64,000 bases of DNA from Halichondria panicea (Eukaryota; Porifera; Demospongiae; Suberitida; Halichondriidae): NCBI RefSeq assembly GCF_963675165.1, contig NC_087389.1:4506120-4570119 (forward strand), read 5' to 3'. The translations under genes and the position numbers were made by a program. Positions 3,001 to 37,505 of this stretch are shown here, piece after piece; the stretch's first letter is position 1, and the number at the start of each line of letters is the position of its first letter. The notes under the pieces are model-generated. The model was not told the origin of the DNA and ran no database searches. It was given only the letters and a program-made list of their open reading frames with translations.

Positions 3001-4513
3001 CTAAACCTAAACGTGGAGTTAGCAGAAATGAATCAGTATTACGACCACAACTGTTGTACAAAAGTACACTTTATGGATTGTTTATCGCATCTATGTATAA
3101 TTATATTCATTGTGTTAAATGCCAGCTACCGTACTTCTTCTAAAAGAGGCGCCCTTCTAACTAGTGTTCAAGCTTGCGCTGTGCTAATGCCTCTCGCCAT
3201 GTTTTTGCTTTTGCTCAAAAGTAGTTTCTATAATGAATTTTATATTAAAGTTAGCGTATCTATATAAAGTCACTGAGAAGAAAAGACTTATTTACATGCA
3301 TCTATTGTTGTTATTTATTGTATTATGTGGCTTACCAGGACCTCAAGAAAGAAGAAAATTGATTCTTCCAGGATCTGTAGTTCAGTGTATATAATATCTA
3401 ACCTGTGTACATGCATATTGTTATCTATATTGTTATATGGTAGTGTTTTGTGGCTTACCAGGCCCTCAAGACAAAGATGATTCTGCCAGGAGGATCTGGA
3501 TCTGGATCTTGGATACTATTTTCTCACACATGGGGAATGAGCGCGCATGCGCATTACATCCACAGGAATAATTAAAGACAAAGAGATCAATTTCACAAAT
3601 GGCTACTGCTAGCTAGCTGTTTTAACAGATATTTTCTGAGTATTGTAGCTAACAAAAAGCTAGCGCTTTAGTGCAAGGCCAACTCATATGTTGAAAGATT
3701 CTGAAGACTAGAGACTGCAACAGCCTTCAATGTGAGTCAAACTAGCCATAACTCGAGAAAGAAGCTTTAGTTTGCTAATCCACGAATCAAAATCCAAGAG
3801 AACGTGGCTAGAAGCCTATAGAAGCTGTTAGCTTTCGTCGCATTGCAACTGTTGAGCAGTTACAGCTGGAACAGACACACACAGTCAGCTTTACCGTATC
3901 CCTCGTGCGGCTACGCCTCAAGGCATAATTATGCGCCAGGACTGAAAAGTAATTTTGAGTCTCCATAATTATTATAATACACAAGGCTCAGCAGAATTAT
4001 TCATGCAATGACCTATAGCCAGGCTTTGCCTAACCTCGAGACCAGTATTTTAATCGGCCTGGATTCGAGGCTAGGCTTCGCCTAGCTAACACAATGACCT
4101 TGAATTGTGTTGTCTCTAGGTGCGGGTTGCTTCTCACTTGACGATTTGCTGGGTTGTGGAAAACGAGACATAGGTTCAGAACCAGAACTTGTACCTAACG
4201 TGTCGGTTGCAGAATTATTTATATTAAGCCAATCCTCCAATTTATCTGCCAGATCGGAATGAGGCAAGTGTTCCGCTGCATCACGAACACACTTTGTGAA
4301 TAATGAAGGAGCTCGATCTCCTTTTATGCACATGATTTTAACTAGTTCCAGTATCTTCTCTTGTCTAGTTAGACTCTTCAACATCAATTTTTCCATTTCA
4401 TTACTGGTCAGAAGCTGCTGATCGTTTAGATGTGGTAGTAGCTCTTCCAGGTTAAGATAGCTATTAAAGTCAACATGATGGACCATAAAAAATCTTTTAG
4501 TAGATCTAGCCAT
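1..4513 (-). CDS. NLR-A: CARD-NACHT-LRR receptor, 3' end outside window
   Basis: This is a probable cytosolic innate immune receptor of the NLR family. Exons read on the minus strand are 4513-4099 (CARD-like, about 138 aa), 2948-2847 (102 bp linker), 2746-928 (NACHT), then one-LRR exons 650-567, 269-183 and 46-<1. Every junction has GT-AG signals and phases that match (phase 1, 1, then 2 for the LRR exons). The NACHT exon shows Walker A GAPGVGKT, the acidic Walker B stretch LFILEGWDEL and VLVTSRPT. The first exon has the CARD pattern LLT..EMEKLML...R..KILELVKIMCIKGDRAP. No lesion is seen, so the gene could be functional. The NACHT ORF runs upstream past the GTG at 2543 to the acceptor at 2747, so that GTG is not the start. 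The first exon and the 5' part of intron 1 resemble NLR-D, whereas everything from 3001 downward resembles NLR-C. Confidence 0.85.
3550..3940 (-). repeat. Dispersed repeat, inverted diverged copy
   Basis: This part of NLR-A intron 1 matches, in reverse complement, the repeat copies at 4669-5260 and 58281-58812. The shared stretch includes the wording around 'ggattttaatccgtggatttgca' and the Ctcgagttatg block. No protein is encoded. It is probably an old non-autonomous element. Confidence 0.55.
4031..4073. mobile_element. 43-bp TAG...CTA miniature element
   Basis: The element begins TAACCTCGAG and ends CGAGGCTA. It is flanked by ggctttgcc (4022-4030) and ggcttcgcc (4074-4082), an 8/9 match read as a 9-bp target duplication. 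It lies in NLR-A intron 1, only 26 bp from the donor. It belongs to the family listed in the findings. Confidence 0.6.
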
Positions 4514-4604
4514 AGCAAGTTTTTACTTAGCGAGTCTCATAGTAAATAGTAGTTGTATACGCCCTCTAGCTAATCGATCCACCGCAAACGATTTATATAG
4601 GGGT

Positions 4605-4617
4605 GGGGAAAATCCCC
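4605..4617. promoter_or_regulatory. NF-kB-like palindrome upstream of NLR-A
   Basis: GGGGAAAATCCCC lies 92 bp upstream of the NLR-A ATG, just beyond a TATA-like tttatatag at 4592-4600. Its inner 11 bases fit the p50-type consensus GGGRNNNYCCC. The same block stands upstream of NLR-D. Function is inferred from motif and position only. Confidence 0.5.
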
Positions 4618-4668
4618 CACAATCCGCTGTGCTCAACATTAATTATTGTATAGCTGCTTGTCAGTCAT

Positions 4669-5260
4669 TATGCCTCGGTGCGCATGCGCAAGCGAGGTAT
4701 ACGGTAGTGTGTTTGTGTGTCTGTCTGTCTGTGTGCGTGTCTGTGTGTGTGTGTAGACTGCTACAGCTGCACAAGGATCAATGAAGTGCAAGTAAGAGTT
4801 TCTATAGGCTTCTAGTCATGTTTTCTTGGATTTTAATTCGTGGATTTGCAAAATAAAGCTTCGTTCTCGAGTTATGCCTAGTTTTTCTTACTTGGAATGC
4901 CATTGCAGCCTTTTCAGAAGAGTCCGTAGCAAAACTTGTTCACCGAATGTTGCTACTGTACTTAGTAGTTAGCTCTGCACTAGAACGCTAGCTCCGCAAG
5001 AGTGAGAAGAGAGCTGCAAGGCTCTGCTGACTTGTAGCCATTAGTTTTAGACTTAAACTTTTGGCATCGATCGTTTTTAACAACAATCACGGTCGATTAT
5101 TACCCACTATTTGAGTTTCCTGCGATTACATGTACAATGCAGCAAAATTAGATCATCATGATAATTATAATCAATGTGTGTATAAAAGCTAGCTAGTAGT
5201 TTTATGTTATGTAGCTTTGGCACCTCCACCGAGGCATCAGCACCCGCGGTGCTTTCATTA
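4669..5260 (+). repeat. Dispersed repeat of about 0.6 kb, copy 1
   Basis: This sequence, between the NLR-A promoter and the NLR-B 3' end, is clearly homologous along its length to 58281-58812 in a DENND6 intron. It starts gcctcggtgcgcatgcgcaa and ends near gaggcatcagcacc. It contains a (TG/TC)n tract and no open frame of note. Confidence 0.7.
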
Positions 5261-7266
5261 GAATATGCACCTGATTAAGTTGTAAAATATAAAAATATGT
5301 AAAATATAAAAATATACTATACACAATGAATGGGGTGGTCTTTCACACATAGAAGAAAAGGTTACACGTGGTACATACACATAACTATCACAGATAATTG
5401 GTGGAGTTTCTCTTCTGCATCACTTGAGAGTGGTGCTTGTAGTTGAGGTCTAACTTGTTCTCTGTGTCTCTCCCAGAGTTGATGGAGTCACAGATCCTCT
5501 TGGAGCTTCTTCTTTCCTTCGTCAGTCACCTTTGTAGCCTCCATTCTGCATGAAACAATTACCTTAATTATTTCCGCAAATTTCACCAGACTATGTACTC
5601 ATGCAATATGCAAACTTTTTAAGGACCATGCACTCACTGTGACTGTACTGTAGTGTCCCCTTAAGCGTACACATGCATACGGAACTTGGCCAATAATAGC
5701 TTTGAAAAGAGCCACACAGCATTGAAAACTGGCATGCAAAGTACGTATACGTGTACTGTATACTCACAGAACTTGATTGACTGAATTGGAGCTGTTCCTT
5801 TTCAAAGCCTCTCCCACTAGTTCAGCACCCTCCGATATGATTGCACCCCAGTCTGTGAGGAACAACAACCAAATATTGATAAGGAACTCATCAATCGGCT
5901 CCGCTGGCTTCTTTGATTTCAAAGCTAGCGTGCATATATGGAAGCATAGTAGTGGACTGTTATGGTATGATTATACTATAATTATAATTGTGGCCGCTTA
6001 CTGAATTCCGACAAAAGTTTCTGTGACTGAAACAGTTCCACGAGTTTCTTGAGCCCCTTTGGTGTGACATCACATCCAAACACCCTGTACAAAGTTTTAA
6101 TAGACCAATTATGACGAGTCATCAATTCATGCAGTTACTACACTTCACAAGCCCTTAACTTACATAACTTTACTTACCCCAACTTTTTGAGAGATCGTTC
6201 AGGTTTAGCGATCAATGCTTCAAGTACTCGCACAAAATCAGCATCTCCAATCGGATTCTTTGACAAACTGCATGACACCAAAATAATGGTGGTTGCAATG
6301 ATAAATGAAACAGTCACGACTTTATCAGAATAAGACTACTGCTCTTCTCAATAATAGTAGCCACCAGATGACAGTCATCAGCTCCCAAATCATTCCGATC
6401 AAGTCTAGAGTGAAAATATAACGTGGCAAATGAACATAAATCCAAGAAAAAATATAATCGCATACTCAAAAAGTTTGAGTGACGTTACCTTAGTACTTCA
6501 AGAGTTTGGTTGACGGGAGCCATTTGGGCTAGAGCAGTAAGACCGGCTGAAGTCATATCTGTTTTCGTCAGTCTACATATAGACGAAGTAATTAAATAAC
6601 ATGAATTATAAATGTATAAATCACTTACGATAATTCAGTGAGAGTCTTGTTGTATCTGTTGTCTAGTGCCTGCGCTATCCTCGTAACACCATGGCAACCA
6701 AATTGTTCAAATCCGATGCTGTATGGACGAATTGTGTGAGTAGAAACGTACCTATAGAAGAATGCTTTCCAAATCATGATATAGTTATGGAACCTTACTA
6801 GAGTTCTTTTATTGTGATGTTTGCTCTCAAGACATCAGCTAGTTCAAAAGCACCATCTTTAGTCAGCTCACAGCTTGAGAAACTGTTAAAAACAAGTGAT
6901 AATTATATAGACTATTACCGGCTTAAAGAAAACGGATAGAAGTACACATATTCGTGGTTTTACATTGTACAACATATGTAAATTCCTGGCTGATATAAAA
7001 TTAATTAATGTAGCGTACTGGAGTGACTTGGTTGTTGCGTGCGGCTGTTTGAGACCTGCTGTGAGAGTCCTCATGCCCTCGTCTCCAAACGGATTGGACG
7101 ACAAACTGTAGAGGGTATTATCGTGACTATAATATGGTTATTAAACATTCACTGATCTGGAATAGATTTACATATACATGTAAAGTAGTAAGTATTTCAA
7201 ATTTGCTAGCTAGACGAGGCACACATGTATAGTGAAACCTCTCAATAAAGGACACTTTACACTTAC

Positions 7267-7713
7267 TATACCGTATAGCGGGTATATTTCGAGGGTATAA
7301 ATGTTCGCGGTTTTCGCGGATTGAGCCTGTACTGCGAAAATTTATACCCACGAAATGTATGAATAGTAGGCGTGTTCAGTATTATTGACCACACCTATCG
7401 ACACAAAAAGGAATCAAGAGACAAGGACGCCGGTATAGCCAGCTAGATTGCTCTATTATACGTCTACGTCCAGATTGTTTTGTACTGGTGGTATCCGCTG
7501 ACCATGGCCTGCACAGCAAACGTTCTGCTAGAGGTGGAGGACATAGTGCCTCACCGATTCTATTTTATACAGGCTAGGCCTGGATTCGAGGCTAACGGTG
7601 TGGAGGTACAGCTGCATGTTGATGTGCGCATGCGCCAAAAAGCTGGAACTCAGACCACGAAAATAAAATCCGGGAAAATGTACACCCTCGAAATATACCC
7701 GCTATACGGTATA
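7267..7713. mobile_element. 447-bp element with perfect 30-bp terminal inverted repeats
   Basis: The 30 bp at 7267-7296 (begins TATACCGTATAGCGGGTATA) is the exact reverse complement of 7684-7713. The interior has no credible protein but holds a TAGGCCTGGATTCGAGGCTA copy at 7574-7593. It sits in the NLR-B intron between LRR exons 1 and 2. The same CCGTATAGCGGG termini recur at 7750, 19580 and 24815. Confidence 0.8.
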
Positions 7714-7749
7714 TAGAGAGACGAGGTCCTTTATTAGCTAAAACTCTAG

Positions 7750-7957
7750 TACTGTATAGCTGGTTATTTTCGAGGCATGAAATTTTTACCCATAAACACG
7801 AAAATTTAGTGTCGCGAAAATTGGTTTACATCGGTATTAGTGTAGGGGTGTGGTCATTTGAACCCGCTATCCTCGAAAATAAACTCCCTAAAAATGTTCT
7901 GTTTGGGCAATCTGCAGTGAAAATTTAGTGCCTCGAAAATAAACCGCTATACGGTAG
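7750..7957. mobile_element. Diverged CCGTATAGCGG-type element
   Basis: It begins actgtatagctggttatttt and ends aataaaccgctatacggtag, which are imperfect inverted repeats of the same family as 7267-7713. It lies in the same NLR-B intron. No coding content. Confidence 0.55.
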
Positions 7958-10466
7958 TTCACATGACTGTCATTAAAATAGAGAGGGTGTCGTACTACAA
8001 TTAATACACACACAAGCTCACATGAGTGAGTGCAGCTGCATCTTGCTGTTGATCATGTCCGCTAGGTGGCAAACAGACATGGCTCGTATCCGGTTCTGAG
8101 TCAAACTGTAGGTAAAAGGTAGCTATAGTAAAAGAGGATCACAGATGAATACAATGTACAGACAATGATGTACATGTAAGAGTGTCGAAGCTACATTGAC
8201 ATACTACTTTAATTGTGTCCAATTTTAAGGATTCACTTTGGGTATAGTAACATAAACCATTCACATCATTACACCACCACTGACTACCTAATAAGTCTAT
8301 ACACTCACTCCAATCTCTTGATGGTGAATCCGAGTACTCCATGGGCCTCAATGTGGGTCAAAAGAGACGTCTTGAATATCCTCAGTCCATCGTCCCCCAT
8401 ATTGCACCCCCTCAACTCGACATGCCAATCCCCCCCGGCCGATGTGATCATGTGAGCAGCACAGAGACAGTCGGTTGTGCTGAGAAGCATGTTACCAAGG
8501 TTTAGAACATGGAACATCTTTTCCGCAACTTTCTTGCTGATAGCAGGGTTGTCAGCTTCGTACAAACAGTGTAGAAGAAAGATTTGATCTCGATTGGCCT
8601 TCCCAGTTTCAGATATGATCAATTCTTTGAAAAATTCGTTCTCGAGCCTTGTAATCCCTGAGAAAAATTTCCAAATGTTTTGAAACTGCTAATCATTTCG
8701 GAACTCTCTCAGAAGTGAAACTCGTTTATTATCAACCAGATTTTGAATTCCATAGGCTGCGAGAAACTCTTGAATTGAGAGATGATTGAACTGATAAATC
8801 TGCTCGAATCCTGCTGCAACGGCCATAACAGGTGCATTCAATAGGCCGTAGCCATCAAAGGCATTTGAATCGAGACCAACAGCCTGCAAATCTTCTTTGC
8901 TGTACACGAACTTCTTCTCTTTGAAGCCGTCCAGAGCCAAAGTACAAAGGGAATTGATCACGCTTCTAACTTCGACCGGTAGTTCTTCCAAGCAAGAAAC
9001 TCCAGAGAGGGACTTGAACGTTACGTGCTTCTTCAAGGTTAGGAAAAGAGTGTTGCAGATGTGCTGACGATAAAGCTCTGTGAGGGTATGCGGCAAAGCT
9101 AAATCTTTTCGAGCCACGTGGCAGATAATGGAAAGAGTGAGCGGGATGTGGGCCAACGCTTTGAGGTTCGGAAACTTGTTGAGATGGCTAAGAACAGTTT
9201 CAGACATATCCCCGCCATGAAGTTGTACGTACTGTGTGATTTCTTTAGTACTGAAGCCCAATACCTCGATATGTCGTTCATCCATGTAATCATAGAGGTC
9301 AGAGGTCACTGTGGGACGAGAGGTTACAAGTACAGATGCTTTCGGTAAAATATTGCCCTCGACAATGTCAAAAAAGAATGAACCTTCTTCACGTAACGTA
9401 GGAGGCAACTCGTCCCAGCCTTCGAGAATGAACAAACTTCTTTCCCCTTGAGATCTCAATAACTCTTCGGTAGCCTCAGCAAGGAGGGGGCCTTGCAGGT
9501 ATATGAGCAGATCACTCAACTCCACTGACGGTTTTCGCTGGTATCTTCTGAGGGTTACCAAGAGCACCATATCGTATTCATCTAGCAGATCGTTATTGGC
9601 CCATAGTTGACACATGTGTAGGGCAAGCATTGTCTTTCCAACACCAGGAGCCCCTTCGACTAGTACGAGCTTCCTCGATCCTTCTTTACCGTAAGTGAAA
9701 ATTCCTTGCAAATTAATGTCTTCCTTTTTCTTCTTGATGATGTCATCCACAGAGCCGTGTAATGTACTTTGCAGAAATTCATCATTCTCTGCGTCTGCAG
9801 CACTTATTCCTTTCTTCTTGACGAGTGCTAGATTAATAAATTTGATAGTTCCTTTGTTAATACCAGGAGATTTGTTAAAGAACTTTTCATCTGCGTAAGA
9901 GGTTCTCAAAGTTTTAATGAGCACTTGAAGAGGAGATTCATCTATTGAATGTCGTTCTGAGCGAGTGAAACTAGAACGTACTAAGGGTGATGAATAATGA
10001 CTTTGATCATCACGTGACGGAGGTATGTATTGCCGGCCAAATTCGTGTGGGGGCTGACAAAATTGCAGGTTAGATTGAGAGGTGCTTAGTTGTTCTGGTG
10101 AGCGATCGCTTTCTTCCATTCTAGAACCTGTGTAAAGAAAGTGTAATATTGAAGGTGCATAGATAATTGAAGTATATTATGCGTACATCGTGAAATGAAA
10201 ATGTTGATTCGTATAGAATGTTTATACCTATTAGCTTGTCATGTGATCTGTCAGGTCTAGGCCGGCGGAGAGGGGGAGGTTGGAGATCTGTTGGCACAGT
10301 GACGTTAGATTGAGCCCCTCTTTTAACTCCTATTGTGAGCAATAATAAAAGAAATTCATATAAAAACACACACACAGTGTACCTGCACCCACAAATTTAC
10401 AGGGTATAATTTAGGGTTACATATTAATTATGCATCTGCCCCATGAATAACAAGCATATCTATATC

Positions 10467-10498
10467 TAGCCCGATTCCAGGCCCTGGAATCGAGGCTA
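10467..10498. mobile_element. 32-bp TAG...CTA hairpin element
   Basis: The element reads TAGCCCGATTCCAGG / CCTGGAATCGAGGCTA as a near-continuous hairpin. It is flanked by atctatatc (10458-10466) and atctatatt (10499-10507). An orthologous copy sits at the same intron position of NLR-C (34508-34538), so it inserted before the B/C duplication. Confidence 0.65.
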
Positions 10499-12567
10499 AT
10501 CTATATTAAATACTCACCAAAAGTTGACAAAGGTCCTTCCTCTTCGTCCATCTGCTCCGTACTTGAGGAAATACTTCGATCGCAAATCATTCTCCTCTTG
10601 CTGTACACCTCCTCGATACGCACCTGGCTTCTTTCCATATACTCCAGTTTGATAGAACTCAGTGTGGGATCTGAATCGAGTCTCGTCCTAATTTCGTCTA
10701 CACCGAATACACTAAGTGACTGCTTCAGAAAGGCAGCAGGTATCTTCCATACTAAGACAATGGAGCCATGTCGGGTGGAAGCAAGACTAAAGGTGTGTCT
10801 CTGAATCGAGAGAACTCCAGCAATCATATCTTTAACCACGAACGCCTCTCCAAGAGTCATATCAGGGTTGCTATGTAATGTCAAGAGGAGATGGTGAGTT
10901 TGGGTAGATGTGGAGTTGTACTGGCAGGTTAGAGCTTGATTGCTCATGATATGATCGGCATACTCGAGAGCAAGAGAGTGCAATTCCTGTAGTCCCAATA
11001 CATGGAGAAGCCTACAGAGTAAGTCAATGTCTGATTCGTGGCACAATCCAAGCTGACGAATATGCACACACAGAGAGCCAAAATCCCTCACTTCTTCCTG
11101 CTGAATAGTAATGCCCATGTGACCATCATGTAGAATCCTGTTTAGTTCAACAATGACGCTGTCAATTGAAACATCATTTGTCGCCATATGAGAAGATATT
11201 CTCTGCACCAAGTGTGCATAATCTGGTGCAACTTGATTCAATGGGGAGGGGAGATCATCGGCAAAACTAGATGGACTGTTCTGATAAAGCAATGAGTTTG
11301 TGGTCTGCTCTTGAATTAGCACCTGTGCTTGCTGCACCAAACGTGGAGTTTCCTCTGCCATTGTTCCTAACAAAATGTTCTGTTCAAATCAAGATTCGAA
11401 GTTTGATAGATTACTCTCTATGGTATCGGTCGGATTTTGATGACTTGTACTGACAGTTACTGCATTATTCGCCTTTAAGCCATAGGGAACATTGATCACT
11501 TGAGGGAGGCTACTGGCTGATATTTGTTCATCAACTGTTACTTGCATTTGTCGCACTAAACATGGAGTTTGCTCCGCCATTGTTAGTGGCAAAAGTCCCT
11601 GTTCGAATTGAGATTCAAAGGTACTAACTGTTGATCTCTGTAATGAGTTTGGATTTGTGTTGTCCTGCTGACGAGAACTGACGGTTTCTGCAGTATTCAC
11701 CCCTAGGCCATGGGGAACGGCATCGATTACTTGAGGGAGGCTACTGACTGATATTTGTTCTTCAATCGGTACTTGTAGAGTTTGCTCGACCATTATATCA
11801 GTCGACGCAGTGTGGTTTGATACGGTATCAACTGTCGAAACATCTTGTGCATTTGTGCTGTCCTGTTCATCACTACACAGCTGGTACAGGGTTTGTCCTC
11901 ACGACTTGGGGGACATTGTAATTACTAGGTTGCGAATTGTTCGTTGCTAGTGCCTGATTCTGAGCAAATGCTGAACGAATAGGGGGCGTGTGTGCTGGAC
12001 GATCTTGAAGCCATTTCTCCATTTTATCCGCTAGTTCAGGATGGGGAAAGTGCTCCTTTGCATTTTGAACACACTCGATGAACAAGAAGGGAGCTTGATC
12101 TCCTTTTATGCATATAATTTTAACAAGGTGTTTAATTTTCTTCTTTCGGGTTGTAAGTGAGTCCAGTGTTTCCATCTCATCTATATCTAGAGTCAGTAAT
12201 TGCTTGCTTAGTAAGGGAATCACTTCATCGATGTTCAGATAATCTTCAAAATCTTTGAGATGAGCCATAAAAAACCTTTTAGTAGAGTAACCTGCAGCCA
12301 TTGTGTAGCTGTAGAGCTAGCTAGCTGGCTTTCTCTGGCTTTTATACAGTGCAGTGTCTCGGTAGTTGGGCGGAGCCCGACCGTCCCTGACGGGAGGTCG
12401 GGGGACACGCTTATATAGGATTTGTACTTGTGTATTATGTAATACTGCTTGGAGCATCATGAATATAATCATTTTAAGTGGGTGTTAAACGCAATATGCA
12501 CCGCACTGCACCACACTGGCTGGCACTGAAAACAACATGACTTTGCTACTAAATTAAAAGAGCAAGA

Positions 12568-12811
12568 ATGGCCCAAGTGCTACAATGTTTTGGATGTGAG
12601 GATGAGCTATCAAGGCCTGGTAACAGGAGAGCTCTTGATGGTCCAGCTGGAAAGGAAGTGTTGGACCTGTGGACAATGCTACTGGAGAATGAGGAAGAAC
12701 AGATGTGTGCTGATGTCGACATTAACAGTATTGTAAATGGCAGTGATAAAAACAGATTGCCCAAAATGTGCAGGAAATGTTTCGGTAGATATAGCAGCTT
12801 TCTTGAAGCAC
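12568..12811 (+). pseudogene. Transposon-borne Cys-pair domain exon
   Basis: An ATG exon of about 81 codons starts MAQVLQCFGCEDELSRPG and ends in KMCRKCFGRYSSFLEAQ before a gtaata donor. The two Cys-x2-Cys pairs lie about 60 residues apart, like a zinc-binding N-terminal domain. No continuation exon is visible; the rest of the element is occupied by the helicase on the other strand. Such first exons typically belong to mobile-element proteins, but the exact family is not recognised. Confidence 0.5.
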
Positions 12812-12845
12812 AGGTAATAATGAAAATAAAATTTGTAATTAGCTG

Positions 12846-14245
12846 AAAGAAGTAACTAAGTCTTAGGTCACATTGTCCACATAAACATGACTTAGAACAA
12901 ATATCACAGCACAAGCAATTGAAACCGAGATCAACATGTTTGTAATTGTCAATATTTCGGAAAAGACTATCCCTTCTACAATCTGTAGTGTTGAAGTTTG
13001 AAGCATATTCTTTAATCTCATTATTAACTTGATGGTAAATTCTTGCCTTTAAAAGGGTTACACGTGATGGTTTACCATCTCGACCTGCTCTACCAGTCTC
13101 TTGTACATAGCTACTGATATCGTCTGACAGGCCAACATGAATGATTTACCGAATGTTGGGACAATCAACACCCATACCAAATGCCATAGTAGCTACAACA
13201 ATGCGAAGATTGCCATCACCCTTAAATAAACGAATGATTTCAGATTTATGGGCTGGATCAGTGACACTTGTAAACATGTCCACGGGGCGAAATTCAGGAA
13301 GATCAGGTGCATCATCAGGATTTGTGAATGCAGCTCCAAGGTAATCCTTAAAGAAGAGGTACATGTCACCACACACTCCAAAAGAACGTCCATATATGAT
13401 TGTTTTGGGAAACTTGTTTCTCTCGATTACCAATTTCTGGGCCAAGTTTTGGAATGTCTCTGGTATACTTTTGAACAATCCAACAGCAAATTTGGGATTA
13501 CTGGGACTCTCGTAATGACAAATGGGTTTCTTAGGCCAACAATACGAGAAATAAATGAAATGTCACTTCGGGTAGCTGTTGCTGTTAGCGCCATCACATG
13601 AACTGATGTTGGAATGAGGCTGCGCACTTCTCTAATTCTCAACAGCATTTGCCTGAAAGTCTCACCCCTGCAATAATATTATTGGTACACATGTTAATGT
13701 TAATAAAAAACAATGAGTCAAATACATACCATTTCTTCACACAATGAGCTTCATCGATTATCAAAGCCTTGAGTCTATTAGCATACATATCTCCCCCCAG
13801 AAGTCTTCTCCAATGCTTCTTGCTGATGATCATTTCAGGTGTAAAGAATACTAGCTGATACTTTCCATGGAAGATCGCATCCATTGTAGCTGCATCAGAC
13901 ATCTCGCCCGAGACATATGTGCTAGAGATGCCTTTAGAACAATAGATGGCTACCTATATATAGAATAAAAGCATCCAGCTTAGAATGATCTAGTTACGTG
14001 TAAACAGCTCATATGCACATGTACGTATAATTATATGTATGTTCTATCTAGCCTTACATACCTGATCATGAATGATGGCCAGCAGAGGAGTGACTACTAC
14101 TACAATAGAATAACCTTTCTCCTTCTCCAATATTTTGTCAAATGCTGCAGGCAAACAAGCATAGCAAAGGCTCTTTCAAAATTCAGTAGGCAATACAGCA
14201 AGACATCTCTGCCTCTCAGAAAAGAAGTGACTACTTCCAAGTAGT
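12846..14245 (-). pseudogene. RecQ-like superfamily 2 helicase pseudogene inside transposon
   Basis: This is a DNA helicase of RecQ type, probably the element's own. Exons: about 14245-14062 (motif I region, ending VVVVTPLLAIIHDQ), 13953-13730 (VFFTPEMII, then DEAH box LIIDEAHCVKKW), and 13667 to about 12846 (MALTATATR, MVATMAFGMGVDCPNIR-like motif V, motif VI QETGRAGRDG, then a Cys-rich end CLCCDICSKSCLCGQC). Lesions are visible. The Walker A glycine codon is TGA (LPTEF*KS). There is a 1-nt frameshift near 13505-13510 and a TAA in place of a Gln codon just before IIHVGLSDD near 13148. A 57-bp hairpin element is inserted at 14242-14298, at the upstream edge of the first recognisable exon. Confidence 0.85.
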
Positions 14246-14298
14246 CTCGAATACCCGCCTCAACCTAAAATTTAGGTTGAGGCGGGTATTCGAGACTA
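14242..14298. mobile_element. 57-bp perfect-hairpin TAG...CTA element
   Basis: Two perfectly complementary 28-bp arms (14242-14269 and 14271-14298) are separated by one base. The ends are TAGTCTCGAA and TTCGAGACTA. Exact 9-bp direct repeats acttccaag flank it (14233-14241, 14299-14307). It is nested in the helicase transposon. Confidence 0.88.
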
Positions 14299-14555
14299 AC
14301 TTCCAAGCTCATTAGCAGCTTCTGTGACAGCTTGTGTAACTTTCTCCATTTTGCTCAAGGCAGCTCCGCCCAGCTGCACACCCACCTAGCTAAGTGGGTG
14401 TTAACCAACCACTTGCAATACTGCAATCTGATTGGGCTGCACTCCTCAGTGCAGCAGTACAAATCCTATACATGTATAAGCGTGTCACCCGGCCACCCGT
14501 TGGGAACGGGTGCCGGGCTCCGCCCAGCTAGTGTCTCGGTATGGGGATCTGGGGG

Positions 14556-14577
14556 GGGGAAACCCTGGTTTTTCCCC
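14556..14577. promoter_or_regulatory. Displaced NF-kB-like motif of NLR-B
   Basis: GGGGAAACCC followed by GGTTTTTCCCC matches the motif upstream of NLR-C (37361-37382) and resembles that upstream of gene E. If the 12363-14530 transposon is removed, this site would be about 77 bp upstream of the NLR-B ATG. It now lies 2.25 kb away. Confidence 0.45.
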
Positions 14578-14619
14578 TCTGCGCATGAAGCGCATGCACA
14601 GTGGATCAATTGTATATGG

Positions 14620-15644
14620 TGGGGAAATGGCCTGATGAGACTCAAACTCAGACTGCTTTGCGAGGGATGTAGAGTGGCTGAAAGATTAGGAGAGAAGCTG
14701 GGAACATGTGGTGGAACTAGACTATGTAGACTGCAAGCACTGAAAAGCCAATGTGGTATAGGTATGTATGAGCAGGTATGAGAGAAACAACCAACTAAAT
14801 AGGCGACTCTACACCGTCTCTACTAGCTGGGCGTGGCTCGACCGTCTCCTGACGGGAGGTCGGGTTGCAAGCCTATCTGGGATTTGTTCTAGCACCACTA
14901 TAGTGGCGCCCTATCAGATTGCAGCATTTTTCACGTGCTTGGCTACACTTCCGTTTGCATCTAGTTGCGAAACGGCATGCAGTATGCTGTGGTTTATCCA
15001 CGTCATCATGTCGGTTAACACCCATGGCAGTGTTACATAATGCTGCAGAACAAATCCCAGATAGGCTTGCAACCCGACCTCCCGTCAGGGAGACGGTCGG
15101 GCCACGCCCAACTACGTCTCTACTTCGTACTATCTATGGTTGTATACAATAATAGCACGAGATGATTGAAGTGCCTACTGCAATGGAGTCTTGTAAGCAA
15201 TGGTGACAATTCCAAGCGGCTTCTGATTGAGTGTGGCTGTTTGGTTTGTGCTTTACACTGTGTTGGTATGAGTGCATGTTTCATACCATTCAATGGCTTC
15301 CTCTCTCCTACAGTTGATGATGAGACAAGAAGAGGCACTGAGAATGGAGGTACAGGTATGATGTGTGTTTCCCTGTAATGTATTGAAGGTGTGCAATGTA
15401 CCCCCTCCCACACACACGCACACCTTTAGGCCTACTATGCTGCTAAGAGAGGGGCCTCGCGTAAACTGGCCACTCAGACGCTAACTAACCTCAGCAGTAT
15501 GGAAAAGGGTCTGTTATCAGAGACTAAAACTTACATACAGCCCACCTCCATGCAGTCTGGTGAGCAGCCTATAAGCAGTGAGGGACAGTCTGAAGACATG
15601 GGTCCATGGACAGGGGCTACTGAGGAACCTTCATCAAGAACAAG
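14620..15644 (+). pseudogene. Unrecognised plus-strand gene relic P
   Basis: I do not recognise the family. Exon-like pieces are a decayed stretch at about 14630-14740 (resembling CFARDVEWLKD..ERSWEHV across stops), 15314-15355 (MMRQEEALRMEVQ) and 15430-15644. The last opens AYYAAKRGASRKLATQTLTN and becomes Ser/Gln-rich. The last two have clean acceptors and donors and an open frame. The same series recurs at 37540-38290, where frames are more damaged, and a third exon-like piece (MFHADDYELQALSKG) occurs at 22230 and 38880. P therefore belonged to the duplicated NLR module. The 291-bp insertion at 14824 lies in one of its introns. Confidence 0.45.
14824..15114. mobile_element. 291-bp non-autonomous relative of the helicase transposon
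   Basis: The ends are TAGCTGGGCGTGGCTCGACC and its inverted match finishing CCACGCCCAACTA. Each carries a subterminal hairpin (cgaccgt...acgg.aggtcg) and a GGGATTTGTTCT block like the 2.2-kb element. Exact 9-bp duplications cgtctctac lie at 14815-14823 and 15115-15123. The paralogous locus near 37705-37715 lacks the insertion. There is no coding content. Confidence 0.9.
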
Positions 15645-15699
15645 GTACGTGTGTATAATGTGTAGTTATGCAGTGCAATGAGTCGACTGTGTACTATTG

Positions 15700-16780: not shown

Positions 16781-16789
16781 ATCTCTTCT

Positions 16790-18854: not shown

Positions 18855-18859
18855 TTAAG

Positions 18860-24814: not shown

Positions 24815-25018
24815 CGGTACCGTATAGTGGGTAATTTTCGTGGGGTAAAATATTCGTTATTTTCGTGGGCAAGCTGACCTACACAAAAATTTCCTCCACG
24901 AAAACGTAGGCCCAAAAAACGCATGCAATGCAGTTAAACGAAATTTATACTCATGAAAATCACCGTTTTCCAGTTAAACAAATTTTTTACCCCATGAAAA
25001 TTATCCGCTATACAGTAA
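24815..25018. mobile_element. CCGTATAGTGGG-type miniature element in NLR-D intron
   Basis: It begins accgtatagtgggtaatttt and ends gaaaattatccgctatacag, imperfect inverted repeats of the 7267-7713 family. It has a T/A-rich interior without coding sequence. Confidence 0.6.
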
Positions 25019-25804: not shown

Positions 25805-25920
25805 AGTTAGAACATGTGCATTCGGTATCTATATGGTTATAGTGTCCCTCATCCCTCGGGCTAAAGCCCTCGAGCTTTGGGACACTATAACACATAGATA
25901 CCTCATGCCCATGTTCTAAC
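25805..25920. repeat. 116-bp imperfect hairpin in NLR-D intron
   Basis: Left arm gttagaacatgtgcat...tatctata...tatagtgtccc pairs with gggacactata...tagata...atgcccatgttctaac, with ccctcgggctaaagccctcg near the loop. It is probably a miniature element. No target duplication was recognised. Confidence 0.55.
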
Positions 25921-28900: not shown

Positions 28901-29399
28901 CTTCTCACTTGACGGTTTGCTGGGTTGTGGAGAATGAGAGGTAGGTTCAGAACCAGAACTTGTAGCTAACGTGTCGGTTATTCCGGTTGCAGACTGATTA
29001 TTTATAAGCCAATTCTCCAATTTATCTGCCAGATCAGAATGAGGCAAGTGTTCCGCTGCATCACGAACACACTTTACAAATAATGAAGGAGCTCGATCTC
29101 CTTTTATGCACATGATTTTAACTAGTTCACATGTCTTTTCTTGTCTAGTTTGACTGGGCAACATCAATTTTTCCATTTCATCACTGGTCAGAAGCTGCTG
29201 CTCGTTTAGGTGTGGTAGTAGCTCCTTGAGGTTTAGACAGCTATTAAAGTCAACATGATGGACCATAAAAAATGTTTTACATGTAGTAGATCTAGCCATA
29301 GCAAGTTGTTAGTTGTTTCTACTTAGTGAGTCTCATAGTAAATAGTAGTTGTATACGCCCTAAATCCACCGCAAAACCGAAAGTAGATTATATAGGGGT

Positions 29400-29412
29400 G
29401 GGGAAAATCCCC
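29400..29412. promoter_or_regulatory. NF-kB-like palindrome upstream of NLR-D
   Basis: GGGGAAAATCCCC with a TATA-like ttatatagg just before it lies 101 bp upstream of the NLR-D ATG. The sequence block is the same as at NLR-A. Confidence 0.5.
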
Positions 29413-29614
29413 CACAATTTCCCTCACATTTCTGTCCACATTATAGTATAGAGCTGCACTTGTACTTGTCAGTACAGTAGAATATAAATTATAATATATG
29501 CACCTGATTGAGTTGTAAAATAATGGGACAAAAATATACTATTGAGAATGGGGGTGGTCTTTCACACATGTTCACAGGAGAAAAGGTTACACGTGGTACA
29601 TATACACATAACTA

Positions 29615-32600
29615 TCACAGATAATTGGTGGAGTTTCTTTTCTGCACCACTTGAGAGTGATGCTTGTAGTTGAGGTCTAACTTGTTCTCTGTGTCTCTCC
29701 CAGAGTTGATGGAGTCACAGATCTCTTGGAGCTTCTTCTTTCCTTCGTCAGTCACCTTTGTAGCCTGCATTCTGCATGAAACAATCACTTTAATTATTTC
29801 GGCAAATTTCACCAGACTACGTACTCATGCAATTTGCAAACTTTTAAAGGACCATACTCACTGTGACTGTACTGTAGTGTCCCCTTAAGCGTACACATGT
29901 ACATGGAACTTAGCCTTTGAAAAGAGCCACGCAGCAATGTAAACTATAGCTATTACTAGCATGCAAAGTAGACTGGAAACCACTCCCCTTCTCTCGGGAG
30001 AAAGGGACTGGCAAGCTGCCGTGTTGAGAGTTGTCCCAGTGCGTGAAGAATGTCACGCTGCCACAAGAATGTAAACGTCACAAATAGTCACGTGCCACCG
30101 CCCACACGCTATAACTATCACTGCACAAAATGTTATCGGCCTCAAGTATAAAGTACATCACCGGCGATCTGTCATCGAGGTTGAAATAATATCACCCACG
30201 CATTATGCATTTTGTGGTTTGTTCTAATTTGCATTCCAACGGGACAACTCTCAACATGGCAACTTGCCAGTCCCCAGAGCCCAGAGTGAAGGGAGTGGTT
30301 TCCAGTCTACATGCAAAGTACGTATACGGTACACTCACAGAACTTGCTTGACTGAATTGGAGCTGTTCCTTTTCAAAGCCTCTCCCACTAGTTCAGCACC
30401 CTCGTCTCCGAGATGATTGCACCCCAGTCTGTGAGGAAAAACAACCAAATATTGACTCCACTGGCTTCTTTGATTTCAAAGCTAGGGTGCATAATGGAAG
30501 CACAGCAGTGGACTGTTGTACAGTTTGCTACCAGTACCTTGACACCGTATGTATTAGTGTCTCTAAAATGTATAAGTTCATGGTCATCACGCAGACCTCG
30601 GTATGTGGTATGCTATAATTATTATAATTGTGGCCGCTTACTGAATTCCGACAAAAGTTTCTGTGACTGAAAACAGTTCCATGAGTTTCTTGAGCCCCTT
30701 TGGTGTGACATCACATCCAAACACCCTGTACAAAGTTTTAATTGACCAAAATAATTATGATGAGTCATCAATTCATGCAGTTTTTACACTTTATAAGCCT
30801 TTACTTATTTAACTTTACTTACCCCAACTTTTTGAGAGATCCTTTACGTTTGACGATCAGTGCTTCAAGTACTCGTACAAAACCAACATCTCCAATTGGA
30901 TTCTTTGACAAACTGCATGACACCAAAATAATGGTGGCTGCAATGATAATGAAACAGTTCACGGCTTACTCTATCAGAATAAGGCTGCTGCTCTTCTCAA
31001 TAATAGTAGCCACCAGATGACAGTCATTAGCTCCCAAATCATTCCGATCAAGTCTAGAGTGCGTGGCAAATGAACATTAATCCAAGAAAAAATATAATCA
31101 CGTACTCAGAAAGTTTGAGTGGGTGTACGTACAAATTACCTTAGTACTTCAAGAGTTTGGTTGACGGGAGCCATTTGGGCTAGAGCAGTAAGACCGACTG
31201 AAGTCATATCTGTTTTCGTCAGTCTACGTATAGACGAAGTAATTAAATAACATGAATTATACATGATAAATCACTTACGATAATTCAGTGAGAGCCTTGT
31301 TGTATCTGTTGTCTAGTGCCTGCGCTATCCTCGTAACACCATGGCAACCAAATTGTTCAAATCCGATGCTGTATAGACACAATTTGTGAGTAGACATACC
31401 TATAGAAGAATGTTTTCCAAATCATGATAGTTACGGAAACTTACTAGAGTTCTTCTATTGTGCTGTTTGCTCTCAAGACATCAGCTAGTTCAAAAGCACC
31501 ATCTTTAGTCAGCTCACAGCTTGAGAAACTGTTATAAACATACTCGATATAATTATAGACCATATTCACCGGCTTAAAGAAAACAGATAAAAGTACATGT
31601 ATAATTATACTTACATATTCACTGTGCATCATAAATGCCTGGCTGATATAAAATTATTATAACTAACTAATAGCACTTAACGTACTGAAGTGATTTGGTT
31701 GTTGCATGCGACTGCTTAAGAGCTCTTGTTAGAGTCCTCATGCCCTCGTCTCCAAACGGATTGGACGACAATCTGTAGAGGATATTATCAGTGACTATGG
31801 TTATTATTATACATTCGCTGATCTGGAATTTAAATACTTACATGTAGTATAGACATAAATTTGCTAGCTGGACGAGGCATATGTGTATAGTGAACTTCTC
31901 AATAAGGACAGTTTGCAATTGGAAACAGTCAGTTTGTCCTAATGTATAGAGACGAGGTCCTTTATTAAGAGGCTAAATCTCTATAGTAGCTGTCCAATAG
32001 AGAGGGTGTCCCTAGCTTGCTTGTAAGGTTTACTACAATTAATACACATGCACACATAAGCTCACATGAGTGAGTGTAACTGCATCTTGCTGTTGATCAT
32101 GTCCGCTAGGTGGCAAACAGACACGGCTCGTATCCGGTTCTGAGTCAAACTGCATGCACGTAAAAGGTAAATTTAAAAAGGATCACAGTTGAATACAATG
32201 CATTGTCTTGATAAAGTACACGAGTGTCGCAGCTACATTTATTGCCATACTACTAAATTGTGTCAGGATACAATTTTGAGTAGCAAACATAAACCATTCA
32301 CATCATTACACTACGGACTACGGACTGGCTAATAATTATCCACTCACTCCAATCTCTTGATGGTGAATCCGAGTACTCCATGGGCCTCAATGTGGGTCAA
32401 AAGAGACGTCTTGAATATCCTCAGTCCATCGTCCCCCATATTGCACCCCCTCAACTCGACCTGCCAATCCCCCCCGGCCGATGTGATCATGTGAGCAGCA
32501 CAGAGACAGTCGGTTGTGTTGAGAAGCATATTACCGAGGTTTAGAACATAGAACATCTTTTCTGCAGCTTTCTTGCTGATAGCAGGGTTGTCGGCTTCGT

Positions 32601-35600
32601 ACAAACAGTGTAAAAGAAAGATTTGATCTCGATTGGCCTTCCCAGTTCCAGATATGATTAATTCTTTGAAATATTCATTCTCGAGTCTTGTAATCCCCGA
32701 GAAAAATTTCCAAATGTTTTGAAACTGCTTGTCATTTCGGAACTCTCTGAGAAGGGAAACTCGTTGATCATTAACCAGATGTTGAATTCCATAGGCTGCG
32801 AGAAACTCTTGAATTGAGAGATGATTGAACTGATAAATCTGCTCGAATCCTGCTGCAACAGTCATAACAGGTGCATTCAATAGGCCGTAGCCGTCAAAGG
32901 CATTTGGTTTGAGACCAACTCTCTGCAAATCTTCTTTGGTGTACACAAACTTCTTTTCTTTGAAGCCGTCCAGAGCCAAAGTACAGAGGGAATTGATCAC
33001 GCTTCTAACTTCGACCGGTAGTTCTTCCAAGCAAGAAACTCCAGAGAGGGACTTGAACGTTATGTGCCTCTTTAAGGTTAGGAAAAGAGTGTTGCAGATG
33101 TGCTGACGATAAAGCTCTGTGAGGGTATGCGGCAAAGCTGAATCTTTTCGAGCCACGTGGCAGATAATGGAAAGAGTGAGCGGGATGTGGGCCAACGCTT
33201 TGAGGTTCGGAAACTTGTTGAGATGGCTAAGAACAGTTTCAGACATATCCCCGCCATGAAGTTGTACGTACTGTGTGATTTCCTTAGTGCTGAAGCCCAA
33301 TACCTCGATATGTCGTTCATCCATGTATTCATAGAGGTCAGAGGTCACTGTGGGACGAGAGGTTACAAGTACAGATGCTTTCGGTAAAATATTGCCCTCG
33401 ACAATGTCAAAAAAGAATGAACCTTCTTCACGTAACGTAGGAGGCAACTCGTCCCAGCCTTCGAGAATGAACAAAGTTCTTTCCCCTTGAGATCTCAATA
33501 ACTCTTCGGTAGCCTCATCAAGAAGAGAGCCTTGCAGGTATATGAGCAGATCACTCAACTTCACTAACGGTTTTCGCTGGAATCTTCTGAGGGTTACCAA
33601 GAGCACCATATCGTATTCATCTAGCAGATCTTTATTGGCCCATAGCTGACATATGTGTAGGGCAAGCATTGTCTTTCCAACACCAGGAGCCCCTTCGACT
33701 AGTACGAGCTTCCTCGATCCTTCTTTACCGTAAGTGAAAATTCCTTGCAACTTAATGTCTTCCTTTTTCTTTTTGATGATGTCATCCACAGAGCCGTGTA
33801 ATGTACTTTGCAGAAATTCATCATTCTCTGCGTCTGCAGCACTTATTCCTTTCTTCTTGACGAGTGCTAGATTAATAAATTTGATAGTTCCTTTGTTAAT
33901 ACCAGCAGATTTGTTGAAGAACTTTTCATCTGCGTAAGAGGTTCTCAAAGTTTTAATGAGCACTTGAAGAGGAGATTCATCTGTTGAATGTCGTTCTGAG
34001 CGAGTGGAACTAGAACGTACTAAGGGTGATGAATAACGACTTTGATCATCACCTGACGGAGGTATGTATTGCCGGCCAAATTCGTGTGGGGGCTGACGAA
34101 ATTGTAGGTTAGATTGAGAGGTGGTGCTTGGTTGTTCTGGTAAGCGATCGCTTTCTTCCGTTCTAGAACCTGTGCAAAGAAAGTGTAATATTGAAGGTGT
34201 ATAGATAATTGAAGTATATTATGCGTACATCATGAAATGAAAATGTTGATTCGTATAGAATGTTTATACCTATTAGCATGTCATGTGATCTGTCAGGTCT
34301 AGGCCGGCGGAGAGGGGGAGGTTGAAGATCTGTTGGCATGGTGACGTCAGATTGAGCCCCTCTTTTAACTCCTATTGTGAGCAATAATAAAAGAGATTCA
34401 TATAAAAACATACACGCAGTGTACCTATAGTCATGCACCCACAAATTTACAGGGTATAATTTAGGGTTACATATTAATTATGCATCTGCCCCATGAATAA
34501 CTATATCTAGCCCGATTCCAGGCCTGGAATCGAGGCTAATCTATATTAAATACTCACCAAAAGTTGACGAAGGTCCTTCCTCTTCGTCCATCTGCTCCGT
34601 ACTTGAGGAAATACTTCGATCGCAAATCATTCTCCTCTTGCTGTACACCTCCTCGATACGCACCTGGCTTCCTTCCATATACTCCAGTTTGATAGAACTC
34701 AGTGTGGGATCTGAATCGAGTCTCGTCCTAATTTCGTCTACACCGAATACACTAAGTGACTGCTTCAGAAAGGCAGCAAGTATCTTCCATACTAAGACAA
34801 TGGAGCCATGTCGGGTGGAAGCAAGACTAAAGGTGTGTCTCTGAATCGAGAGAACTCCAGCAATCATATCTTTAACCACGAACGCCTCTCCAAGAGTCAT
34901 ATCAGGGTTGCTATGTAATGTCAAGAGGAGATGGTGAGTTTGGGTAGATGTGGAGTTGTACTGGCAGGTTAGAGCTTGATTGCTCATGATATGATCGGCA
35001 TACTCGAGAGCAAGAGAGTGCAATTCCTGTAGTCCCAATACATGGAGAAGCCTACAGAGTAAGTCAATGTCTGATTCGTGGCACAATCCAAGCTGACGAA
35101 TATGCACACACAGAGAGCCAAAATCCCTCACTTCTTCCTGCTGAATAGTAATGCCCATGTGACCATCATGAAGAATCCTGTTTAGTTCAACAATGACGCT
35201 GTCAATTGAAACATCATTTCTCGCCATATAAGAAGATATTCTCTGCACCAAGTGTGCATAATCTGGTGCAACTTGATTCAATGGGGAGGGGAGATCATCG
35301 GCAAAACTAGATGGACTGTTCTGATAAAGCAATGAGTTTGTGGTCTGCTCTTGAATTGGAACCTGTGCTTGCTGCACCAAACGTGGAGTTTCCTCTGCCA
35401 TTGTTCCTAACAAAATGTTCTGTTCAAATCGAGATTCGAAGTTTGATAGACTACTCTCTATGGTATCGGTCGGATTTTGATGACTTGTACTGACAGTTAC
35501 TGCATTATTCGCCTTTAAGCCATAGGGAACATTGATCACTTGAGGGAGGCTACTGGCTGATATTTGTTCATCAATTGTTACTTGCGTTTGTCGCACTAAA

Positions 35601-36337
35601 CATGGAGTTTGCTCCGCCATTGTTAGTGGCAAAAGTCCCTGTTCGAATTGAGATTCAAAGGTACTAACTGTTGATCCCTGTAATGAGTTTGGATTTGTGT
35701 TGTCCTGCTGACGAGAACTGACGGTTTCTGCAGTATTCACCCCTAGGCCATGGGGAACGGCATCGATTACTTGAGGGAGGCTACTGGCTGATATTTGTTC
35801 TTCAATCGGTACTTGTAGAGTTTGCTCGACCATTATATCAGTCGACGCAGTGTGGTTTGATATGGTATCAACTGTCGAAACATCTTGTGCATTTGTGCTG
35901 TCCTGTTCATCACTACTAACAGCTGGTACAGGGTTTGTCCTCACGACTTGGGGGACATTGTAATTACTAGGTTGCGAATTGTTCGTTGCTAGTGCCTGAT
36001 TCTGAGCAAATGCTGAACGAATAGGGGGCGTGTGTGCTGGACGATCTTGAAGCCATTTCTCCATTTTATCCGCTAGTTCAGGATGGGGAAAGTGCTCCTT
36101 TGCATTTCGAACACACTCGATGAACAAGAAGGGAGCTCGATCTCCTTTTATGCACATAATTTTAACAAGGTGTTTAATTTTCTTCTTTCGGGTTGAAAGT
36201 GAGTCTAGTGTTTCCATCTCATCTAGAGTCAGTAATTGCTTGCTTAGTAAGGGAATCACCTCATCAATGTTCAGATAATCTTCAAAATCTTTGAGGTGAG
36301 CCAAAAAAAACCTTTCAGTTGAGTAACCTGCAGCCAT
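29615..36337 (-). CDS. NLR-C: intact CARD-DED-NACHT-LRR receptor, 1,545 aa
   Basis: This is a predicted cytosolic sensor expected to oligomerise through NACHT and signal through death-fold domains. Thirteen exons: 36337-34558, 34371-34270, 34169-32348, 32149-32066, 31772-31686, 31528-31445, 31368-31279, 31223-31140, 31053-30970, 30912-30823, 30725-30642, 30428-30339 and 29771-29615. All junction phases agree and the total is 4,638 nt. Residues about 8-97 are a CARD-like domain. Residues 168-340 hold three copies of a repeat (EQ..QVPI.EQISASSLPQV...). Residues about 360-450 look like a DED (LCVHIRQLGLCHESDIDLL..LLHVLG). Residues 460-593 are an unrecognised conserved region (GSIVLVWKI). Then come NACHT with GAPGVGKT and nine LRRs. 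The ATG was chosen because it starts the CARD and aligns with its paralogues. Confidence 0.92.
29969..30309. mobile_element. 341-bp TAG...CTA element in NLR-C intron
   Basis: Inverted ends TAGACTGGAAACCACTCCC and GGGAGTGGTTTCCAGTCTA are bounded by exact 9-bp duplications catgcaaag (29960-29968, 30310-30318). The orthologous intron of NLR-B (around 5733-5741) has a single catgcaaag and no insertion. No coding capacity. Confidence 0.9.
34508..34538. mobile_element. 31-bp hairpin element in NLR-C intron 1
   Basis: TAGCCCGATTCCAGGCCTGG continuing to AATCGAGGCTA is the counterpart of 10467-10498 in NLR-B. Flanking 9-mers are aactatatc and atctatatt (7/9). Confidence 0.6.
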
Positions 36338-37002
36338 TGTGTAGAGCTAGCCTAGCTAGAGCTAGCTGGCTGGCTTTATATTGTCATAAAATAATTATAT
36401 ATACCGTACCCTCGCGAAAATACGCCCACCCTTTTCTGCAAGAAGTCTAGGCTTATTAGGGGACTGGGCGTTTAATCGCGAACGGCGAGTTTTCATTCCA
36501 ATATACGCCCACCCGCGGCCTCAAATCGAGGTTTACACTTTGCTGTATGCCAATTCTTATTGTGTTTTAATACATAGTATGAACATTTTATTGACAACAA
36601 CAAACAATGTTATAAACTAATGCATGAGTATGATTAAAGCATGACAAGAGAATGATCATGAAGAAGTACGTGGACTCTGAGACTGACTCTATTCGTTGCT
36701 TGTTGATGTTAGATGTAGCAGAAACTTCTCGAAGGATGGTAGGTCATACTCCTACAGAGCAGCTATCAGGTACTTTGTTTCAGAAAGCCAAGGCAAGGTA
36801 ACCTGCAAAATTAGCCTGTGTGATAACTTTCTTAGACTTTGTGTTTCCTTTCTCAGCATATAGGACTACTTGTTCCCTGCATATACATCTTCAGGGGCAA
36901 ACAGATCCATACAGAGAAAGTTATAATGTCTGATCTTGGTCCAGCAAGGAGTATAGTCTTACTAGCTACTACCTAGCCTCTATAGTCTTACTAGCTACTA
37001 CC

Positions 37003-37061
37003 TAGCCTCGATTCCAGGCCGATTAAAATACGTATTTTAATGCGGCCTGGAATCGAGGCTA
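37003..37061. mobile_element. 59-bp hairpin TAG...CTA element
   Basis: Arms TAGCCTCGATTCCAGGCC (37003-37020) and GGCCTGGAATCGAGGCTA (37044-37061) enclose attaaaatacgtattttaat. Exact 9-bp duplications gctactacc lie at 36994-37002 and 37062-37070. It is nested in the 933-bp element. Confidence 0.85.
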
Positions 37062-37106
37062 GCTACTACCTAAAACTTCCTTTCTTCACTAAAATTAATA
37101 GCAAAC

Positions 37107-37179
37107 TAGCCTCGACTCCAGCCCTTGAATAGTGAATAGCCTTTGAATAGCCTTTCTCAGCGGCTTGGAATCGAGGCTA
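37107..37179. mobile_element. 73-bp TAG...CTA element
   Basis: It begins TAGCCTCGACTCCAG and ends TTGGAATCGAGGCTA. Flanks atagcaaac (37098-37106) and atagcgaac (37180-37188) match at 8 of 9 positions. Confidence 0.7.
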
Positions 37180-37360
37180 ATAGCGAACATGTGGCATTCA
37201 GCTACTGCGCATGCTCAACTTCTTATTCTGGGTGGGCTTATAATCGAGTGAAAATACCCTTGTGCAAGAACTTTGAAGCAAAAGAGGGGATGGGCGTTTA
37301 TTCAAGATGGGCTTATTTTCGCGAGGGTACGGTAAATACTGGAATGTTAGTAGTGAATCT

Positions 37361-37382
37361 GGGGAAATCCTGGTTTTTCCCC
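37361..37382. promoter_or_regulatory. Displaced NF-kB-like motif of NLR-C
   Basis: GGGGAAATCC then GGTTTTTCCCC, homologous to 14556-14577. Without the 933-bp element it would lie about 90 bp upstream of the NLR-C ATG. Confidence 0.45.
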
Positions 37383-37431
37383 TAGCAAGGCTTCCTGTCA
37401 CATGCAATACACTGCTGAACTACAATGTAGC

Positions 37432-37505
37432 TAGCCTCGATCCCAGGCCGCACTTCCCACTTCACTTTTCTATGAAGCTGAAGGCCGCGCCGGTGAAGGA
37501 GGCTA
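37432..37505. mobile_element. 74-bp TAG...CTA element
   Basis: It begins TAGCCTCGATCCCAGGCC and ends GAAGGAGGCTA. Exact 9-bp duplications caatgtagc lie at 37423-37431 and 37506-37514. The hairpin is weaker than in the 57- and 59-bp elements. Confidence 0.8.

Follow-up and report, generated by a model that had tools for sequence, protein, structure and literature searches.

What kind of transposon produces insertions of 32 to 2168 bp, and do the smallest of them, some of which are hairpins, move as units of that size? The question is raised by a stretch of 64,000 nt from the sponge Halichondria panicea (contig NC_087389.1; the window, meaning the whole stretch of DNA that was analysed), in which an initial annotation had described nine insertions with TAG...CTA ends and 9-bp target-site duplications (TSDs). 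Genome searches were made in the same genome (131 Mb, 39 contigs), and L-numbers denote loci extracted from it. The insertions look like products of an AcademH-like system, a label that rests on an encoded helicase and on TSD length. The best overall explanation, to which we give a probability of about 0.78, is an AcademH-like system whose derivatives, the micro-hairpins included, were mobilised in trans.

All nine insertions were read directly in the sequence at their annotated positions, and the exact TSDs described for six of them and the 8/9 matches described for three were confirmed (Table 1). TAG and CTA ends are present on eight, the 43-bp element starting with TAA, and the smallest insertion is 32 bp in length rather than 31 bp. 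The description of small elements as perfect hairpins holds for the 57-bp element; the 59- and 32-bp elements contain a 1-nt bulge, and the 73-, 74- and 43-bp elements all fold poorly. Since the 73- and 74-bp elements have TSDs of 8/9 and 9/9, a perfect hairpin was rejected as a requirement for all tiny elements. The nine are one kind of transposon, as had been proposed, but not a single family, their ends splitting into several subfamilies (TAGTTGGGCGG/TAGCTGGGCGT, TAGCCTCGA, TAGTCTCGAATACC and TAGACTGGAAACC).

The window was compared with 60 dinucleotide shuffles of itself by counting TAG...CTA pairs, 25-6000 bp long, whose 9-bp flanks match exactly and whose terminal inverted repeats (TIRs) agree at 9/14 or better. 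Seven matches were obtained in the real window (six elements and one overlapping pair, 36974-37061) against a shuffle mean of 0.017 (maximum 1), and a chance origin of the insertions is therefore excluded. When TIR agreement of at least 11/14 was required, the window gave five matches at 9 bp, one at 7 bp (49322-50495), and none at flank lengths of 6, 8, 10, 11 or 12 bp.

Full-length elements and their genes

The 2168-bp insertion was used in a genome search in which 40 of 452 candidates were scored, so that the copy count is a lower bound. It was found at at least 23 places including the window, aligning in one piece from base 1 to 1879 (in one case to 1860), and the 22 other copies are 95-98% identical to the window copy; two extracted copies are flanked by their own exact TSDs, ggttttgat in L002 and agcacaggt in L004. 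Exons similar to its first coding exon precede DUF6589 exons in L010 and L015 and are disrupted in L007, and relatives of its helicase remnant match Helicase_C/DEAD and RecQ. Other matches are spread over 5-9 kb, and following them up revealed copies that carry a second, many-exon gene; one of its exons matches Pfam PF20231 (DUF6589) with an E-value of 7e-27. A DUF6589 profile search gave 92 exon-level matches in the genome and no match in 14 control genomes.

Full-length protein-coding copies, which the initial annotation had named as the thing to look for, were found in the genome as elements of 5.3-5.6 kb with TIRs (24-83 bp), exact 9-bp TSDs and a DUF6589 gene (Table 1). DUF6589 E-values were 1.7e-39 for L010, 2.7e-31 for L012, 3.4e-34 for the L015 place and 1.4e-29 for the L020 place. 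RecQ-family helicase open reading frames (ORFs) are present in the L010, L012, L015 and L020 elements on the strand opposite to the DUF6589 gene, and the ORFs of L010 and L012 matched helicase domains in Pfam. The RecQ family was the best model for the L012 helicase (E 3e-61), with a score under that model's curated cut-off because the ORFs are partial, and the PDB relatives of the helicases were WRN/BLM chains (E about 1e-36). The earlier report of a helicase gene accompanying hairpin miniatures and 9-bp TSDs was thus borne out.

The blocks GDN[IVL][DA], GDQ[LM]T, GDG.R and LH.EH[LI]N recur across several families and may supply the catalytic D, D and E, and the DUF6589 protein is taken to be a putative DDE-type transposase; a PDB search with part of DUF6589 gave nothing credible. 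A Pfam family of "unknown function" is hereby tied to transposons with defined ends. Weaker DUF6589 matches were seen at C9:1650827-1651732, C3:3629098-3630003 and C14:4797543-4798448 in open frames of 1617-1732 aa, which possibly represent another lineage or a host gene. Beside the full-length element of L010 lies an ORF (671-1810) that resembles, by eye only, a retroelement reverse transcriptase.

Micro-hairpins, their insertion sites and their mobility

The genome contains 1373 occurrences of the 18-mer end TAGCCTCGATTCCAGGCC and 0 of the reversed control; among its first 19 forward matches on C1, a partner end was found within 1 kb in 12 and a TSD of 8-9/9 in 8. With up to 3 mismatches allowed, a 58-bp near-palindrome is present at 83 places, of which 42 (40 extracted, plus L041 and L055) were examined and represent 35 independent sites. 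TSDs match at 9/9 in 26 of these sites and at 8/9 in two, and the 28 TSDs are 27 different sequences when strand is ignored, gtgcatgcc being common to two unlike sites. With one mismatch allowed, the two flanks agree over 9 bp at 34 of 40 places, over 5 bp at 2, and over 6, 7, 8 or 10-13 bp at none. When left flanks were paired with the right flanks of other 58-mer places, 36 of 1560 pairs matched at 8-9/9, duplicated-host-repeat pairs included.

The 59-bp window hairpin, counted together with a 58-bp variant that shares its host repeat, was found at 7 sites, 6 of them with TSDs of 8-9/9. A 47-bp form is present at 30 places, and the 20 that were extracted represent 19 sites, 15 with TSDs of 8-9/9 and one with an exact 10-bp TSD. 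In L117 the left flank of a 47-bp hairpin resembles another TAGCCTCGATTCCAGGCC element, a micro-element beside or inside a micro-element. Forms of 34-39 bp, sought with an exact-core pattern, were found at 10 places representing 8 sites. The repeated 34-mers of L023-L025 and 59-mers of L032/L033/L045 share their flanks and are therefore duplicated host repeats, which counts against the notion that all micro-hairpins are families.

The 58-mer, the 47-mer and forms of ~600 bp are multicopy and non-coding and carry the TIRs and TSDs of an autonomous family, which are the marks of miniature inverted-repeat transposable elements (MITEs), and the autonomous elements with ends closest to the micro forms are L020 and L012. 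The hairpins share with MITEs and foldback elements in general that they are non-autonomous, TIR-only, TSD-flanked and palindromic, but at 47-59 bp they are far below the ~600-bp MITEs of the same genome. When single-stranded, the 57-, 58- and 59-mers form strong folds (-28 to -32 kcal/mol). The titles and abstract openings of literature on very small MITEs, palindromic MITEs and sponge elements contained nothing equivalent.

Sites without the insertion were read for several hairpins. The 57-bp hairpin is nested in the 2168-bp element; the alignment of other copies breaks at its position, and an empty site with a single acttccaag was read in 5 of 5 extracted copies, so that hairpin and TSD are present in the window copy and absent from five others. 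Of one host repeat (L067-type), 7 copies carry one and the same 58-mer and 7 are empty; the empty copies are uninterrupted across the target and have in common a 2-3 base difference ~15 bases to the side. A single insertion appears to be the origin of all the filled copies. The host repeat of the 59-mer is uninterrupted across the junction in 7 of 7 extracted copies. Target preference was analysed on 66 distinct empty sites (TSDs of 8-9/9 only), the flanks of which tend to be palindromic. The tendency is strongest at the first (G) and ninth (C) base of the TSD and, beyond the TSD, at about four positions to either side. The consensus is about AGYTA/GTN5AC/TARCT (slashes at the limits of the TSD), which is weakly palindromic. 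A weight matrix built on 21 long-element sites gave 47 micro sites (up to 100 bp) scores well above those of random window positions (p 1e-14), and a micro-trained matrix performed likewise on the long-element sites (p 0.001). As the target motif transfers both ways, long and micro elements use one kind of machinery.

The 58-mer itself, we infer, quite likely transposes as a 58-bp unit; direct mobility is graded lower for the 47-mer, and the 32-43 bp forms are probably collapsed remnants. The main rival, which we consider less likely, is collapse in place, whereby ~600-bp elements would insert and their interior would afterwards be removed, through slippage or through deletion at the hairpin tip. 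Parents of ~600 bp with matching TIRs and TSDs do exist and their ends are common (one end type has 363 genome matches, the other 51). Of 56 exact end-matches 20 were extracted, and 12 of these had a partner end, giving 11 elements of 586-603 bp and one of 101 bp, with TSDs of 9/9 in ten, 10/10 in one (L134) and 9/10 in one (L137). Sizes of 44, 51, 57 and 101 bp look like one-off deletions, and the junction of the 47-mer, which is found in varied backgrounds, lies at an 8-bp direct repeat. Against collapse, the 58-mer, which is the most frequent micro form and whose arms share only about 2 bp (CG) at the junction, outnumbers the slippage-favoured 47-mer by 83 places to 30, which favours its own mobility, and its sequence is identical at 23 of the 35 sites. 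The CCAGG/CAAGG arm difference typical of 58-mers is present in 10 of the 12 parent partner ends and therefore does not decide the matter; it was dropped as proof of one 58-bp founder.

Several observations weigh against mobilisation of the micro-hairpins in trans by an AcademH-like system. Three of the eight C1 cases with TSDs lie in one duplicated host repeat and three in another; 7 of the 35 58-mer sites lack a good TSD (6/9 or less); and the 34-39 bp sites have TSDs of 8-9/9 in only 3 of 8, with 7/9 in two and none in three. The genome has no second copy of the 57-bp hairpin even with up to 3 mismatches allowed, and the notion that all micro-hairpins are families was rejected on this account as well. 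The 47-mer, found in varied backgrounds, is the expected product of slippage between CGGCCTGG repeats. Micro forms do not all have the same background (CCAGG/CAAGG arm combinations), and since the commonest combination is shared by the ~600-bp parents, one junction may have collapsed repeatedly. The empty sites fit direct mobility and in-place collapse alike. An exact-TSD scan at L007-L009, L014, L016-L019 and L021 gave no full-length pair enclosing the gene.

Under mobilisation in trans, the putative DUF6589 transposase and the opposite-strand RecQ-family helicase of a full-length element would drive cut-and-paste movement, and a staggered cut at a weakly palindromic target would leave a TSD of 9 bp, sometimes 10 bp. 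Internally deleted copies, namely the 2.1-kb helicase remnant, the ~600-bp MITEs and the 47/58/59-bp hairpins, would be mobilised by the same proteins, the hairpins being little beyond two TIRs joined tip to tip. The transposase, with bending help, might close a very small loop; alternatively, the palindrome might extrude as a hairpin or cruciform, which would place both ends adjacent at its base with the DNA unbent, and the helicase perhaps assists this extrusion. That the ends are brought together by extrusion, perhaps helicase-aided, is an attractive reading; that the 47-59 bp hairpins are self-contained multicopy transposons, below 64-70 bp, moving in this way is a tentative and rather doubtful one.

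At 58 bp, DNA reaches only about one third of its persistence length. Mobility of the 58-mer would raise the physical question of how a transposase pairs ends so close together, and it would hint at what the helicase does in AcademH-like elements. If mobile, the unit would to our knowledge be among the smallest eukaryotic mobile DNA elements. It would also lie below the minimum of 64-70 bp given in the available text of PMC3464196 (2012) for comparable bacterial elements, the smallest cut-and-paste transposons in vivo. The same text describes Paramecium internal eliminated sequences, which are cut by a transposase-type enzyme, have a first size peak of 26-28 bp and may form excision loops perhaps as short as ~45 bp; like the hairpins they are transposon-derived and very short, with looping limits discussed, but they are excised, mostly unique-copy remnants, whereas the 58-mer is multicopy with separate TSDs (PMC3464196).

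Superfamily assignment

The elements were filed as AcademH-like because they combine a helicase with 9-bp and occasional 10-bp TSDs. AcademH is said to be a lineage of Academ DNA transposons set out by Kojima in 2020 (Mob DNA 11:15). In the available text of PMC10045372, AcademH has TSDs of 9 or 10 bp and AcademX of 3 or 4 bp, a contrast linked to the encoded helicase or nuclease. Here TSDs of 9 or 10 bp were found, 10-bp TSDs occurring at single elements (L106, 61-107, agctttaccg; L134, 10/10; L137, 9/10), and a helicase is encoded in L010, L012, L015 and L020. Pfam scans of ORFs from L007, L008, L010 and L012, which covered some but not all small exons, recognised no AcademX-type nuclease. 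The initial annotation had been unable to name a matching superfamily; this does not stand, a helicase with a 9- or 10-bp TSD being the published mark of AcademH as far as that text goes. The elements resemble AcademH in helicase gene, TSDs and animal host, and differ in having hairpin derivatives of 32-60 bp, some of them multicopy; they are ordinary in superfamily and unusual in the size and number of these derivatives.

An independent helicase-bearing lineage, AcademH-like only in TSD length and helicase, is improbable. It would agree with a likeness to AcademH judged from helicase and TSD length, with PF20231 being named only as of "unknown function" and with a full-text search for DUF6589 that returned nothing in the literature collection covered; the combination of a helicase with 9/10-bp TSDs, published for AcademH (PMC10045372, available text), and the occasional 10-bp TSD found here as well speak against it. 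The Mutator or Merlin element considered earlier agrees in its 9-bp TSD but is very improbable, as full-length copies encode DUF6589 and a RecQ-type helicase, and Pfam scans of the larger ORFs, some small exons lying outside them, showed no MULE or Merlin transposase domain. A hAT element (8-bp TSD) was rejected on the 58-mer flanks (34/40 within one mismatch over 9 bp, 0 over 8 bp). KolobokH elements have the target TTAA, unlike the 9-bp TSD here. They are alike in having a RecQ helicase beside a DDD/E transposase, according to the available text of PMC9587614.

Features of the window and of extracted loci

Table 1 Coordinates of insertions and genes in the window and of full-length elements at extracted loci
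Location	Strand	Length	Feature	TSD and remarks
4031..4073		43 bp	Degraded element, starts TAA	8/9
10467..10498		32 bp	Hairpin	8/9 (atctatatc/atctatatt)
12363..14530		2168 bp	Deleted AcademH-like element; helicase remnant and putative transposase exon 1	gtgtctcgg, exact
12568..12816	+		First coding exon of DUF6589-type gene (MAQVLQCFGC...)	Remainder of gene missing
12866..14352 (limits approximate)	-		RecQ-family helicase remnant, several frames	Broken by 57-bp hairpin
14242..14298		57 bp	Perfect hairpin within 2168-bp element	acttccaag, exact
14824..15114		291 bp	Non-autonomous element, ends TAGCTGGGCGTGGC	cgtctctac, exact
29969..30309		341 bp	Non-autonomous element, ends TAGACTGGAAACCACTCCC	catgcaaag, exact
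37003..37061		59 bp	Hairpin	gctactacc, exact; 9 genome places at up to 3 mismatches
37107..37179		73 bp	Element with ends resembling 1067-bp element L008 1111-2177	8/9
37432..37505		74 bp	Element with ends unlike each other: left TAGCCTCGATCCCAGG, right resembling that of L018 7084-7823	caatgtagc, exact
L010 2559-7975		5417 bp	Full-length, TAG...CTA	Exact, 9 bp
L011 1744-7156		5413 bp	Full-length, TAG...CTA	Exact, 9 bp; 99.8% like L010
L012 2225-7573		5349 bp	Full-length, TAG...CTA	Exact, 9 bp
L013 2373-7721		5349 bp	Full-length, TAG...CTA	Exact, 9 bp; 99.9% like L012
L015 845-6444		5600 bp	Full-length, TAG...CTA	Exact, 9 bp
L020 1577-7219		5643 bp	Full-length, TAG...CTA	Exact, 9 bp

The window also contains four ORFs with NACHT domains, all on the minus strand (924-2795, 8689-10176, 26536-28092 and 32344-34218), three of which also match the NOD2 winged helix above cut-off, and two ORFs with CARD domains (28748-29308 and 34541-36346, both minus strand). 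Together these are an array of NLR-type immune genes. An ORF with RING, B-box, filamin and NHL repeats, of TRIM-NHL type, is located at 61204-63357 on the plus strand.

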